Shown here piece after piece: positions 53,682-58,457 of a DNA stretch of 64,000 nucleotides (positions are counted from its first letter, which is position 1; each line of letters opens with the position of its first letter). The notes below the pieces were generated by a model. The model saw only the letters and a list, made by a program, of their open reading frames with translations. It ran no database searches and was not told the origin of the DNA. The translations under genes and the position numbers were made by a program. Location of the stretch: contig NZ_QCYG01000001.1 of the NCBI RefSeq assembly GCF_003072065.1, positions 372,001-436,000 of the forward strand, written 5' to 3'. Source of the stretch: Thalassorhabdomicrobium marinisediminis (GTDB taxonomy: Bacteria > Pseudomonadota > Alphaproteobacteria > Rhodobacterales > Rhodobacteraceae).

Positions 53682-55841
53682 TCAGGCGAAGGTGTCGGCG
53701 AAGGTGTTGCGGAAGATGTCCGTCAGCTCTGACAGGGGGGCCGAAGCGCCGCCCATGGTCACAAGGTCGCCGTGGAAACGGCCCACGGTGGTCACCGGAA
53801 CGCCAGCCTGACCGGCGGCGATCATCAGCGCCTCGGCCTTGTCGAAGTTGCAAGCCACGAGGTAGCGGGCCTGATCCTCTCCGAACAGGGTGGGCGTGTC
53901 GCCTGCGTCCAACGTCACGCCGGTGCCAGCGGCCTCGGCCATCTCGAACGCCGCAAGCGCAAGGCCGCCGTCGGAGAGATCGGTGCAGGCGTCGATCCAC
54001 TGGCGGTTGTCGCGGATGAAATCGCCGTTGCGCTTCTCGGCCTCAAGATCAACCTCGGGCGCGTCGCCTTCCTCGCGGTTGAACACCTCCGCCAGAAGCG
54101 CGGATTGCCCCAGATGGCCCTCGGTCTCTCCGATCAGCAGGGCGACGTGCCCGTCGCGCGCGGTGCCGCCGATGATGTCGTCCGGATGGTCGATCAAGCC
54201 CACGGCGCCGATGGTCGGGGTGGGCAGGATGCCCTGACCGTCGGTCTCGTTGTAAAGCGAGACATTGCCCGAGACGATGGGCATGTCGAGCGCCTTGACC
54301 GCCGCCCCGATGCCTTTGATCGCGCCCACGAACTGGCCCATGATCTCGGGCTTTTCGGGGTTGCCGAAGTTCATGTTGTCGGTGGTCGCCAGCGGCTTCG
54401 CGCCCACGGCCGTAAGGTTGCGATAGGCCTCGGCCACCGCCTGTGCGCCGCCGCGTTCGGGGTTGGCCTTGACGTAGCGCGGTGTGACGTCCGAGGTGAA
54501 GGCCACGGCCTTGTCGGTGCCATGCACCCGCACGATGCCCGCGCCGAGGCCCGGAGCGCGCACGGTGTCGGCCATCACCTGACTGTCGTATTGCTCATAC
54601 ACCCATTGTTTCGCAGCATAATTCGGCGTGGACAGCAGCGCCCGCAGCCCATCGATCGGGTCGATGTTGGGCACGTCGGCCAGCGGCTCGGCGGCGGGCG
54701 TCTCAACCCAAGGCCGGTCGTATTCGGGGGCGGAGCCGGACAGGGTCGCCAGCGGCAGATCGGCCTTCACCTCACCGTTGTGCAGGATCAGGAAGCGATC
54801 TTCGGCGATGGTCTCGCCCACGATGGCGAAGTCGAGGTCCCATTTCTCGAACACGGCGCGGGCTTCGGCCTCAAGCTCGGGCTTGAGCACCATCAACATG
54901 CGTTCCTGACTTTCCGACAGCATCATTTCATAGGCGGTCATATCAGGCTCGCGCTGTGGCACGTTCTCGAGGTTGAGCTTCACGCCCAGCCCGCCCTTGT
55001 CGCCCATCTCGACCGCCGAACAGGTCAGCCCCGCGGCCCCCATGTCCTGAATCGAGATCACCGCGCCGGTCGCCATCAGTTCCAGCGTCGCCTCCATCAG
55101 ACGCTTTTCGGTGAAAGGGTCGCCCACCTGCACCGTGGGGCGCTTGTCCTCGATGGTGTCATCGAATTCGGCGCTGGCCATGGTCGCACCACCAACGCCG
55201 TCGCGGCCGGTTTTGGCCCCCAGATAGACCACGGGCATGCCGACGCCCGACGCGGCGGAGTAGAAAATTTTGTCGGTGTCCGCCAGACCCGCAGCGAAAG
55301 CGTTCACAAGGCAGTTGCCGTTGTAGGCCGGGTGGAACCGCACCTCACCGCCGACCGTGGGCACGCCGAAACAGTTGCCATAGCCGCCGACGCCTTCGAC
55401 GACGCCGTGCACAAGCTGCCGCGTCTTGGGGTGGTCCGGCTCACCGAAGCTGAGCGCGTTCATCGCCGCGATGGGCCGCGCGCCCATGGTGAAAACATCG
55501 CGCAGGATGCCGCCCACGCCGGTCGCCGCACCCTGATAGGGTTCGATGTAGCTGGGGTGGTTGTGGCTTTCCATCTTGAAAACAATGCATTGGCCATCGC
55601 CGATATCGACGATGCCCGCATTCTCACCGGGGCCGCAGATCACTTGCGGGCCGGTCGTAGGCAAGGTGCGCAGCCACTTTTTCGAGGATTTGTAGGAACA
55701 ATGTTCGTTCCACATGGCCGAGAAGATGCCAAGCTCGGTAAACGTCGGCTCGCGTCCGATGATGTCGAGGATTCGGTCATATTCCGTGTCCGATAGCCCA
55801 TGGGCTGAAATCAGGTCGGGTGTGATGGCCGGATCTTGCAT
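53682..55841 (-). CDS. purL: Phosphoribosylformylglycinamidine synthase subunit PurL
   Basis: 719 residues, the small-type PurL that needs separate PurQ and PurS for glutamine use. It makes FGAM from FGAR with ATP in purine synthesis. Marks: [72 protein letters not shown] and [30 protein letters not shown] site precedes ATG 55841. Confidence 0.97.
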
Positions 55842-55869
55842 ATGTGTCCCCTCGGATGCTTGGCGCACC

Positions 55870-56667: not shown

Positions 56668-57288
56668 CTAACGTTCGTTGAACCCCTTGCCGGCGAAAAT
56701 TTGCGGACGCAGCTTCTCGATGCGGCGGGCGCGGGTGACGCTTTGTTTGGCGCTGCCGATGTGCATGTAGTAGCCGCGTTTGCGACCTGGGGTCAGGGCT
56801 GCGAAGGCGTCGGCGAGTTCAGGATCGGCGTCCAATGCATCGGTCAATTCGTCGGGCACGTTATGGTCTTTGACAGTCTTGGGCGGCTTAAGACCCTTGT
56901 CGGCGTATTCCTTTGCCTCTTCGAGATAGGCGGCGAGCACCGGGGCCATGGCCTCGACCGTTCGACAATCCGAAAAGCGCACCATGCTCCTTGTCTTGGT
57001 GTTGGGGCCAGGCGCTTCGAGTATGCCCTCGGGGTCTTTCAACAAGCTCGCGTTCATATACGTGAAACGGAAATCGTTCTGGAACGCCCCGATCATCGCG
57101 ATGTTGTGGCCTGCGTGCATATAGACGGGATGGCCCCATTTGACGTGTTCGGACAGTCCTGCGTCAAGACAGATACGCCGTAGAACGATCACCCCATCGT
57201 GCCATTTGGCCACGGAACAGGCCGGTGTGTCGAACCGTTTGCAGCGGCCGCACCCCTTTGAGAAGTAGTCTTCGATGTCGGTAATCAT
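56668..57288 (-). CDS. YdeI/OmdA-like protein with DUF1801 domain
   Basis: 206 residues. An N-terminal cysteine cluster (GCGRCKRFDTPACS, residues ~12-25) precedes a DUF1801 domain (KWGHPVYMHAGHNIAMIGAFQNDFRFTYMNASLL) and a C-terminal OmdA-like part (LDADPELADAFAALTPGRKRGYYMHIGSAKQSVTRARRIEK). Typical of YdeI-type proteins of unknown function; the cysteine cluster suggests bound metal. ATG 57288 is preferred: a longer start at 57366 would run through the terminator of the candidate small RNA. Confidence 0.78.
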   Translation of the reverse strand: MITDIEDYFSKGCGRCKRFDTPACSVAKWHDGVIVLRRICLDAGLSEHVKWGHPVYMHAGHNIAMIGAFQNDFRFTYMNASLLKDPEGILEAPGPNTKTRSMVRFSDCRTVEAMAPVLAAYLEEAKEYADKGLKPPKTVKDHNVPDELTDALDADPELADAFAALTPGRKRGYYMHIGSAKQSVTRARRIEKLRPQIFAGKGFNER

Positions 57289-57328
57289 ATGGCCCCCGCT
57301 GTCCCGCAACACCTTATCCGGGTGCTGG

Positions 57329-57398
57329 AAAAAAGAAAGCCGGGCACAAGGCCCGGCAAAGTCCAACAGGGAGGTATAGAGCGACGCATCGCCCTATG
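57329..57398 (-). ncRNA. Candidate small RNA with anti-Shine-Dalgarno motif
   Basis: Minus strand, about 70 nt: a promoter TTGAAT-N17-TATTAC (57432-57404) points to a start at 57397-57398; hairpin 1 has arms ATAGGGCGA (57397-57389) and TCGCTCTAT (57384-57376) with one G-U pair around TGCG; a single-stranded linker begins ACCTCCCTGTTGG (57375-57363); hairpin 2 GCCGGGC/GCCCGGC (57357-57339) ends in TTTCTTTTTT (57338-57329). The linker is complementary to ribosome-binding sites. It may instead be an attenuated leader of the YdeI-like gene at 57288. Confidence 0.55.
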
Positions 57399-57403
57399 CC
57401 TCT

Positions 57404-57432
57404 GTAATATATTTTGGCGTCCTTCCATTCAA
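57404..57432 (-). promoter_or_regulatory. Promoter of the candidate small RNA
   Basis: TTGAAT (57432-57427), 17 bases, TATTAC (57409-57404) on the minus strand, inside a very AT-rich patch. Alternative -10 readings shift by 1-2 bases. Confidence 0.5.
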
Positions 57433-57454
57433 GGCAAATGGAGGCCCGGGCGCT

Positions 57455-57481
57455 CATAGCCGCTATGCGTGTGACGCATAG
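57455..57481. other. Overlapping palindromes downstream of the LysR gene
   Basis: CATAGC-C-GCTATG (57455-57467) and CTATGCGT-GTG-ACGCATAG (57463-57481) share bases and could form alternate hairpins. They lie 52 bases after the LysR stop, before the small-RNA promoter. No T-run. Confidence 0.4.
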
Positions 57482-57533
57482 AGCACGACAGGAAGTGTCG
57501 GGAATTTGGGCCGGGGGGCGGCGCGCTTGCCCC

Positions 57534-58457
57534 TTAGGTGGTGACTTGCGACAAGGCGTTCTGCCCGTCGCGCATGGTCTTGCGGTAGGCGATCACCTCA
57601 TCCTGGACGAAGTCGCGGAAGGCGCGGATGCGTTTCGAGCGGCGCAGCTCCTCGGGGTAGGCGAGGTAGACGGGCACATCGTTGCTTTCCAACTCGGGCA
57701 CGACCCGCACCAACGAGGGGAAATCCTCGGTCACGTAGTCGGGCAGCACGCCGATGCCCAGCCCGCTGACGACAGCCTGCAACACGCCGAAGTAATTGTT
57801 CACGTGCAGCACGTTGGGCCGGTAGTCGTGCAAAAGCTGTTTGGTCATCTTGGCCCCCGCTGCGACCTGAAACGCCGTCGGGTTCTGACAGATCAGCCGG
57901 TGCCGTGCGATATCCTCTTCGACGTTGGCCGCGCCCGCATGATCGAGATAGGATTGCGACGCGTAAAGCCGCATGGTGACGGTCATCAACCGCTTGCGGA
58001 TCAGGTCGGCCTGCGACGGCTCTTTCATGCGGATGGCGACGTCCGCCTCGCGCATGGGGAGGTCCAGCACCCGTTCCTCAAGCATCAGGTCGATGTTCAG
58101 GTCTGGGTATTTCTCATAAAGGGCGGGCAGGCGCGGGGCGAGCCAGAGCGTGCCGAAGCCGGTGGTCGTCGTGACCTTCAACTCTCCGAAAACCTCTTCC
58201 GCGCTGTCCTTGATCCGCGCGCTTGCGGCGTCCAGCCTGCGCGACATGGCCTTGGTGGCATCGAACAGCAATTCGCCCTGTTCGGTCAGGATCAATCCGC
58301 GCGCGTGGCGGTGGAACAGAATCGTCGAAAGTGATTCTTCCAGCCCCCGGATCTGGCGCGACACGGCCGATTGCGACAGGTGCAAGGTGTCGCCGGCATG
58401 GGTCAGCGATCCGGCATCCGCCACAGCGTGAAAGATTCGTAGCTTGTCCCAATCCAT
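57534..58457 (-). CDS. LysR-family transcriptional regulator
   Basis: 307 residues. DNA-binding domain WDKLRIFHAVADAGSLTHAGDTLHLSQSAVSRQIRGLEE (~3-41) and an effector domain (~90-300). It is divergent from the indolepyruvate oxidoreductase gene with dyads in between, so it likely regulates that gene and itself; the effector may be an aromatic 2-oxoacid, which is inference. Confidence 0.92.
   Translation of the reverse strand: MDWDKLRIFHAVADAGSLTHAGDTLHLSQSAVSRQIRGLEESLSTILFHRHARGLILTEQGELLFDATKAMSRRLDAASARIKDSAEEVFGELKVTTTTGFGTLWLAPRLPALYEKYPDLNIDLMLEERVLDLPMREADVAIRMKEPSQADLIRKRLMTVTMRLYASQSYLDHAGAANVEEDIARHRLICQNPTAFQVAAGAKMTKQLLHDYRPNVLHVNNYFGVLQAVVSGLGIGVLPDYVTEDFPSLVRVVPELESNDVPVYLAYPEELRRSKRIRAFRDFVQDEVIAYRKTMRDGQNALSQVTT

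Follow-up and report, generated by a model that had tools for sequence, protein, structure and literature searches.

Between a gene for a LysR-type regulator and a YdeI/OmdA-like gene on the minus strand of Thalassorhabdomicrobium marinisediminis lie the parts of a small RNA gene, and the question is which RNA this might be and what could control it. The window, i.e. the whole stretch of 64,000 nucleotides that was analysed, had been read earlier from its letters alone. That sequence-only reading proposed an independently transcribed small RNA carrying a CCUCCC anti-Shine-Dalgarno linker and preceded by a promoter of its own, or else an attenuator leader. On comparative evidence the ~70-nt minus-strand RNA is confirmed as a real small RNA and as an ortholog of SorY of Rhodobacter sphaeroides. 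Very likely it is a trans-acting RNA made from its own RpoH-type promoter and tuned by the adjacent LsrB/VtlR-type LysR at a tripartite operator. The locus comprises the following features:

56668-57288, minus strand: YdeI/OmdA-like gene, 3' of the RNA here and not in most relatives examined; outside the module.
57329-57398, minus strand: SorY-type small RNA of about 70 nt; the 5' end (57398 ± 2) is predicted by comparison with the SorY start in R. sphaeroides.
57329-57357, minus strand: intrinsic terminator with a 7-bp G+C stem (57357-57339) and the T-rich tail TTTCTTTTTT (57338-57329), from fold and terminator scan.
57359-57375, minus strand: seed ACCUCCCUGUUGGACUU, mostly single-stranded, with an exact 15-mer at 57361-57375, from conservation and the pairing model.
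57376-57397, minus strand: 5' hairpin of 9 bp, covarying, from fold and alignment.
57405-57411, minus strand: -10 element TATATTA, spaced as it commonly is in relatives; T-13 and A-12 present and T-9 absent, compared with PMC3441632.
57428-57433, minus strand: -35 element CTTGAA (RpoH type), sequence compared with the logo rules of PMC3441632.
57454-57479, minus strand: tripartite operator ATGCGTCACACGCATAGCGGCTATGA, matching 11 of the 12 positions of ATGC-N7-GCAT-N7-ATGC and including a T-N11-A LysR box, from motif scoring.
57534-58457, minus strand: LysR-type regulator of the LsrB/VtlR ortholog group, directly upstream of the RNA, from Pfam (HTH_1 and LysR_substrate), a PDB match, tblastn in both directions and a tree.

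The minus-strand elements on which the sequence-only reading was built (TTGAAT-N17-TATTAC, the hairpin at 57397-57376, a CU-rich linker, and a terminator ending in T-rich sequence) are present. The linker ACCUCCCUGUUGG begins at 57375 and is mostly, but not wholly, unpaired, its mean unpaired probability in the pairing model being 0.74. The whole RNA folds at -30.8 kcal/mol (z -4.0), a value reached by none of 200 shuffles. Two overlapping matches were returned by the terminator scan, where 0.4 were expected, and both represent the same terminator of the RNA. A gap of 40 bases separates the tail from the ATG of the YdeI-like gene (57288). The SorY start site that served to place the 5' end is position 1,632,642 of R. 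sphaeroides, as given in the accessible text of PMC6238624.

Conservation was followed in two sets of loci. The first comprised 45 SorY-type loci from a search with the SorX and SorY models; 43 of them had a same-strand LysR gene upstream and no more than one change in the linker, and two (L042 and L047) were added on sequence alone. The linker was exact in 43 of these 45 loci (L022 and L031 have one change each) and in all 12 SorX loci. Because this set had been chosen by RNA score, a second was drawn by the LysR protein alone, consisting of the best 80 of the LysR loci listed, all of them named loci. In 71 of these best 80 the exact 15-mer lay on the same strand within 1500 nt downstream, compared with none of 80 in reversed or complementary controls. 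Among the other nine, L192 has a linker with two changes, the sequence ends early in L212 and L237 (after 16 and 361 nt) and six lack the linker. In a class-wide search the exact 15-mer occurred in 7 of 385 genomes, five of them from the same family (reversed control, 1 of 385), and CCTCCCTGTNNGACTT occurred in 149 of 198 family genomes (control, 2 of 198).

Compensatory changes were found in the 5' stem among 15 same-genus loci. There, 98.7% of the cells of the 5' helix are paired, against 39-46% in slid controls. Over the whole structure four pairs were changed on both sides, in 11 cells (2.9 in shuffles, none of 500 as high). The covariation score was 0.297 compared with 0.200 in shuffles, again with none of 500 as high, while two of the five covariation measures were matched by shuffles (pairs with double changes in 43 of 500, pair types in 168 of 500). 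RNAalifold detected no common 5' stem in 30 other family loci, the 5' stem being alignable within the genus only. In all 71 LysR-chosen loci with the linker, the 45 nt 5' of it have a folding energy of -6 kcal/mol or below (raw values with no shuffle control). Together with the conserved promoter described below, these changes bear out the idea of an independent small RNA. Tandem RNAs of the SorX/SorY type, in two copies about 150-175 nt apart from start to start, were seen at G239:C3:381913-382080 and G009:C37:95105-95333.

The gene directly upstream encodes a LysR whose best PDB match was 9HH1 (E 1.9e-70), the LsrB of Agrobacterium (PMC11975290, accessible part). Its nearest relatives, by protein search and tree, are from Octadecabacter. 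In the three Rhizobiaceae plasmid-collection records examined, the best matches were LsrB/VtlR: R. leguminosarum (annotated VtlR) with 40.6% identity, S. meliloti with 38.7% and Shinella with 40.8%. A reverse search with R. leguminosarum VtlR at E 1e-60 gave 25 records, identical to the first 25 of the list for the window LysR, and found the same place in all seven Rhodobacterales records. In a tree from which a Sphingobium row was excluded (branch 7.96 when included), the group formed by LsrB/VtlR and the window LysR was split from two other LysRs with 100/100 support, its internal order being poorly resolved. The helix-turn-helix (HTH) region is 74-76% identical to that of LsrB/VtlR, compared with 40-45% for three other LysRs. 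The effector half is 28-30% identical to LsrB, compared with 29-31% for three other LysRs, and the signal sensed may differ from that of LsrB because this half is no closer to LsrB than other LysRs are. Four redox cysteines have been reported for LsrB (PMC11975290, accessible part). None of the 84 Rhodobacteraceae LysR rows counted, from which the short row L237 had been dropped, has these four; another, Cys190, is present in 81 of the 84. A record titled Enemella evansiae (L197, JAFKDC010000018.1) carries a lysR locus of Rhodobacteraceae type with 77% identity and is probably mislabelled or a mixed assembly.

The -35 and -10 boxes proposed earlier are there, but a sigma-70 scan of positions 57200-57600 found no promoter site; a sigma-70 promoter was dropped, and it is an RpoH-like pattern that fits and is conserved. 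According to the part of PMC3441632 available, the logos of RpoHI and RpoHII contain C-37, TTG, C-14 and T-13 (RpoHII), A-12 and T-9 (RpoHI). In the 45 SorY-type loci the best-fitting pair was mostly CTTGA[AT]-N16-CCTAAAT-like; since the best fit was chosen each time, these counts lean towards the motif. Among the 71 LysR-chosen loci with the RNA (from the best 80 listed), CTTG-N18-[CA]N-TANNT was found in 59, and in none of 71 reverse complements, shuffled sequences or lysR-internal windows. A looser pattern, TTG-N17-21-TANNT, was found in 66 of the 71 loci and in 3, 5 and 0 of the same controls. The promoter in the window has C-37 with TTG, T-13 and A-12, but it fails the strict pattern because it has T at -15 and A at -9. 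The missing T-9 predicts a preference for RpoHII in this species. In R. sphaeroides, SorY has been reported to depend on RpoHI/RpoHII, to be bound by Hfq and to remain unprocessed, and its induction by stress and regulation of takP have been described (PMC5036791 and PMC8307010, accessible parts). As far as the published accounts available in part go, SorY is controlled by sigma factors and by the small RNA StsR. A conserved LysR operator would add a further testable input to this well-studied stress RNA.

Such an operator precedes the promoter in nearly all loci. ATGC-N7-GCAT, with one change allowed, lies upstream of the -35 element in 70 of the 71 LysR-chosen loci from the best 80 listed, and in 1 of 71 shuffled controls. 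The second half-site is 31-32 bp from CTTG in 56 of the 60 loci in which both could be placed (31 bp in the window). Scored on its 12 positions, the tripartite operator gave 12, 11, 10 and 9 in 22, 31, 17 and 1 of these 71 loci, i.e. at least 10 in 70 of them; shuffles reached 9 in 4 of 71 and lysR-internal windows in 1 of 71, and none scored higher. All 45 SorY-type loci scored 10-12, while 12 SorX loci scored 7-8 and an alpha-R8-like locus 7. L192, with its changed linker, retains an operator scoring 11. In the six LysR loci that lack the RNA, no score within 600 nt rises above the background of 7-9.

We infer that the LysR binds this operator, and likewise the sign of its effect. An unlikely alternative is that the operator belongs to another regulator. 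In its favour, the effector half of the LysR has diverged, and an operator ahead of lysR itself was looked for and rejected, since only 1 of 80 lysR upstream regions (best 80 listed) reaches a score of 10. What speaks for the adjacent LysR is the T-N11-A geometry, the fit of the sorY operator to six of the seven fixed positions of the published LsrB site, an HTH region nearly identical to that of LsrB/VtlR, and the joint loss of operator and RNA. The gap between lysR and iorA, a gene for indolepyruvate oxidoreductase, contains a palindrome of a different kind, TAGGTCA-N-TGACCTA (58578-58558, minus strand), which is present in many of 39 relatives and represents the site of a different regulator.

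Very unlikely is a processing of the RNA from the 3' end of the lysR mRNA, in which the operator-like repeat would be an mRNA hairpin or a weak lysR terminator. Both genes do lie on the same strand, with a short gap in most loci examined. However, SorY of R. sphaeroides has its own start site (PMC6238624, accessible part), and the distance from repeat to -35 box is fixed as described above. In four loci in which lysR is more than 1 kb away (L014, L032, L043 and L050) the repeat remains with the RNA, scoring 10, 10, 12 and 11, and the same repeat precedes abcR1 in rhizobia.

Comparison with Rfam led to an RNA family already known, SorX/SorY, which the sequence-only reading had overlooked. The SorX model (RF02784) matches with 49.7 bits (E 4.7e-9 across the whole window), over its gathering threshold of 46.6, while the SorY model (RF02651) gives the window RNA 42 bits, below its threshold of 111. 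Among 394 family genomes just one reaches that threshold, yet matches at E 0.001 or better were obtained in 370; these matches must include SorX copies because SorX and SorY share the linker. Taken at face value the scores would make the RNA a SorX, that is, an RNA cut by RNase E from the 3' end of an ompR-type mRNA, as reported for R. sphaeroides SorX, RSs2461 (PMC6238624, accessible part). The identical 15-nt linker and the order of hairpin, linker and terminator agree with this reading, but it is scarcely probable. The gene 5' of the RNA encodes a LysR and not OmpR, the conserved promoter and operator lie immediately 5' (the operator is absent from the SorX loci), and the genome has a separate, better SorX of 65.2 bits (G000:C11:372155-372224), whose linker starts 47 nt past an OmpR-gene match. 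The Rfam thresholds missort these RNAs, so that the SorY ortholog of the window is labelled SorX.

Synteny agrees with SorY. The SorY model matches genome G081 at position 1,632,645, near the published start at 1,632,642, and a protein of this genome is identical over 365 residues to PDB entry 2HZK, which we take to be TakP of R. sphaeroides; G081 is therefore R. sphaeroides 2.4.1 or nearly so. Its SorY locus has a LysR gene on the 5' side (74% identical to the window LysR), purL on the 3' side and the same linker. In the window, purL lies at 53682-55868, beyond two inserted genes (YdeI and PRC-like), and ACCUCCCUGUUGGAC, the SorY linker, is present. With LysR upstream and purL downstream as in R. 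sphaeroides, the window RNA is the ortholog of SorY (RSs1543), with which it also shares the exact seed, the terminator, the operator (11 of 12 positions) and a probable RpoH-type promoter. It differs from R. sphaeroides SorY in a shorter and different 5' stem, in the two genes inserted before purL, in its low score against RF02651 and in the pairing with the takP leader, which is not kept. Least probable of all is a role as leader or attenuator for the YdeI-like gene, which starts about 40 bases 3': a terminator followed by a gene on the same strand would suit it, but YdeI is the 3' neighbour in only 2 of the 45 SorY-type loci (the window itself and one same-genus locus), whereas purL lies 3' within the fetched flank in 30 of the 45, and in Octadecabacter antarcticus the lysR-sorY pair is on plasmid pOA307_63 (L262), beside repC and repB. 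Stem covariation, the RpoH-type promoter and the varying downstream gene argue for a trans-acting small RNA with its own promoter rather than an attenuator.

Other families with an anti-Shine-Dalgarno motif were compared as well. The sequence-only reading had drawn a tie to CcsR/cuckoo and alpha-r14 RNAs. These share the CU-rich motif but have several copies per RNA, placed in hairpin loops (PMC7143759, accessible part), whereas the window RNA has a single one in its linker, and the tie is not supported. The alpha-R8 RNAs (MmgR, SisA-D; suhB RF00519) have the same succession of hairpin, unpaired CCUCCCU and terminator. The window RNA lacks their UUUCCUCCCU core and has AUACCUCCCUGUU instead, scores 18.8 bits against a threshold of 41 for RF00519, and does not lie beside the FGase gene that PMC12559287 assigns to alpha-R8; that paper mentions neither SorX, SorY nor Rhodobacter. 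The genome's own alpha-R8-like RNA reads CCUCCCUGUCAGACUU where the window RNA reads CCUCCCUGUUGGACUU. An alpha-R8-like RNA at L071 (G000:C33:195527-195608) contains CCTCCCTGTCAGACTT, two letters from the SorX/SorY core, and several family genomes carry both forms, so that a third sibling is possible. In Microvirga ossetica an alpha-R8 RNA of 52.7 bits (L267, 1608-1678) lies just 5' of the gene for an LsrB-like LysR. A descent of the SorY sequence from AbcR or alpha-R8 was considered and not supported; short models containing a terminator are unspecific, and unrelated families score alike.

The proposed mechanism would be as follows. Transcription would start at the RpoH-type promoter of the RNA itself and would be tuned by the adjacent LysR bound at ATGC-N7-GCAT-N7-ATGC upstream. 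The single-stranded ACCUCCCUGUUGGAC would pair with transporter mRNAs at the Shine-Dalgarno region and would lower their translation under stress, probably with the help of Hfq. The predicted duplex between the linker and the takP leader of R. sphaeroides has -22.8 kcal/mol, the best of 16 DctP leaders (nine from R. sphaeroides and seven from this genome). It also exceeds 50 leaders from the window (best -17.7, median -11.2), which start at the longest frame and are uncurated. A duplex as stable arises with 1 of 1000 leaders after shuffling, and with 19 of 1000 when the linker is shuffled instead. The nearest TakP homolog in this genome is 35% identical and its leader pairs weakly (-13.2). Two genes give better predictions here, one for a DctP protein (L079, -19.3) and one for a peptide-binding protein (L164, -20.1, with a 10-nt match; at G000:C34:63142). 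The pattern ACAGGGAGG-N3-10-ATG occurs at 12 places in R. sphaeroides and three in this genome, and its reverse at none, a control that ignores the ordinary enrichment of Shine-Dalgarno sequences. Some of these places were set aside: of the three, one is the antisense of SorX and one opens a frame of 12 codons, and of the 12 in R. sphaeroides one opens a frame of 20 codons.

The relationship of the LysR to LsrB and VtlR leads to AbcR, the small RNA system that is much studied in plant and animal partners. In S. meliloti, LsrB drives AbcR1 via T-N11-A and GCAT-N3-TG-N3-T, and RpoH1 drives AbcR2 from CTTGAA-N16-CCTATAT (PMC8844928, accessible part). Binding and activation of the AbcR1 promoter by a LysR-type regulator have been reported in PMC8844928 and PMC7486931, both available in part. 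Two ar15/AbcR genes (97-127 bits) lie downstream of the LysR gene in L254, L258, L261 and L268, and the operator precedes abcR1 in all four AbcR loci examined, with scores of 12, 12, 11 and 12, in line with the published site of LsrB and its control of AbcR1; two of the four are near-identical Sinorhizobium loci (L268 is nearly the same as L254). Since the motif was derived from sorY loci, the comparison with abcR1 is an independent test of the operator. The gaps between abcR1 and abcR2 score 6, 9, 7 and 7. The operator is not strictly confined to abcR1, since the gap in R. leguminosarum (score 9) holds an exact GCAT-N7-ATGC, i.e. two of the three half-sites, and abcR2 of this species may have a partial operator site.

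To judge by gene order and operator, lysR-sorY has the look of a Rhodobacteraceae version of lsrB/vtlR-abcR. The Rhizobiales system, LsrB/VtlR with AbcR1 and AbcR2 (alpha-r15, RF02345), has in common with it an orthologous LysR gene directly 5' on the same strand, the tripartite operator, a CU-rich anti-Shine-Dalgarno RNA and transporter targets, and its AbcR2 has an RpoH promoter (PMC8844928, accessible part). lysR-sorY differs in that the body of its RNA is not recognised as ar15, it has one RNA instead of two, its LysR is without the redox cysteines of LsrB, and its operator lies about one turn further upstream. The ar15 model found no match at E up to 1 in positions 57200-57600 of the window and none up to 0.05 in the SorY loci L259, L260, L262 and L269. 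sorY appears to join both inputs, since an operator of LsrB type (as for AbcR1) and an RpoH promoter (as for AbcR2) are found on one gene.

Probably lysR-sorY and lsrB/vtlR-abcR1 derive from one ancestral module of the Alphaproteobacteria, in which the DNA-binding half of the LysR and the tripartite operator would have persisted, and a different RNA body, LysR sensing half and core promoter would have been taken on. The oxidative input of Rhodobacteraceae would then come via RpoH sigma factors and not via the thiol switch of LsrB, with a single RNA receiving both inputs, which in Sinorhizobium are divided between AbcR1 and AbcR2. Two regulatory circuits that have been studied separately would thus look like one old bacterial module, and this would be a case of a regulator and its operator outlasting the RNA under their control. 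LsrB has been stated to be unique to Rhizobiales, with R. sphaeroides in the set compared (PMC11975290, accessible part), and elsewhere to be conserved in many Alphaproteobacteria (PMC7486931, accessible part). A shared ancestral module, if true, means that LsrB is not unique to Rhizobiales, and our finding runs against that statement. SorY itself is known; what appears to be new is the LsrB/VtlR operator at the sorY promoter and the LsrB ortholog as its neighbour. Neither was reported in the accessible parts of the literature on SorY, AbcR and LsrB/VtlR in Rhodobacter.

In L024, from another family, the LysR is 51% identical, the operator matches 10 of 12 positions, and the RNA has CUCCCUCCC in a hairpin loop and CCUCCCUGUUUGAC in a linker. 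By its layout this longer RNA (1415-1575) stands midway between the SorY and AbcR types and is a possible intermediate. Neither ar15 nor SorY was matched in the 2-2.5 kb fetched for related LysRs of Azospirillum, Tistrella, Methylobacterium and two Microvirga, whose operator scores were 8-10. Finally, the L254 record (CP090106.1), 3.7 Mb long and called pSymB of S. meliloti, carries trxB-lsrB-abcR1-abcR2, a locus that the accessible text of PMC8844928 places in the reference genome of S. meliloti; the replicon label may be wrong.
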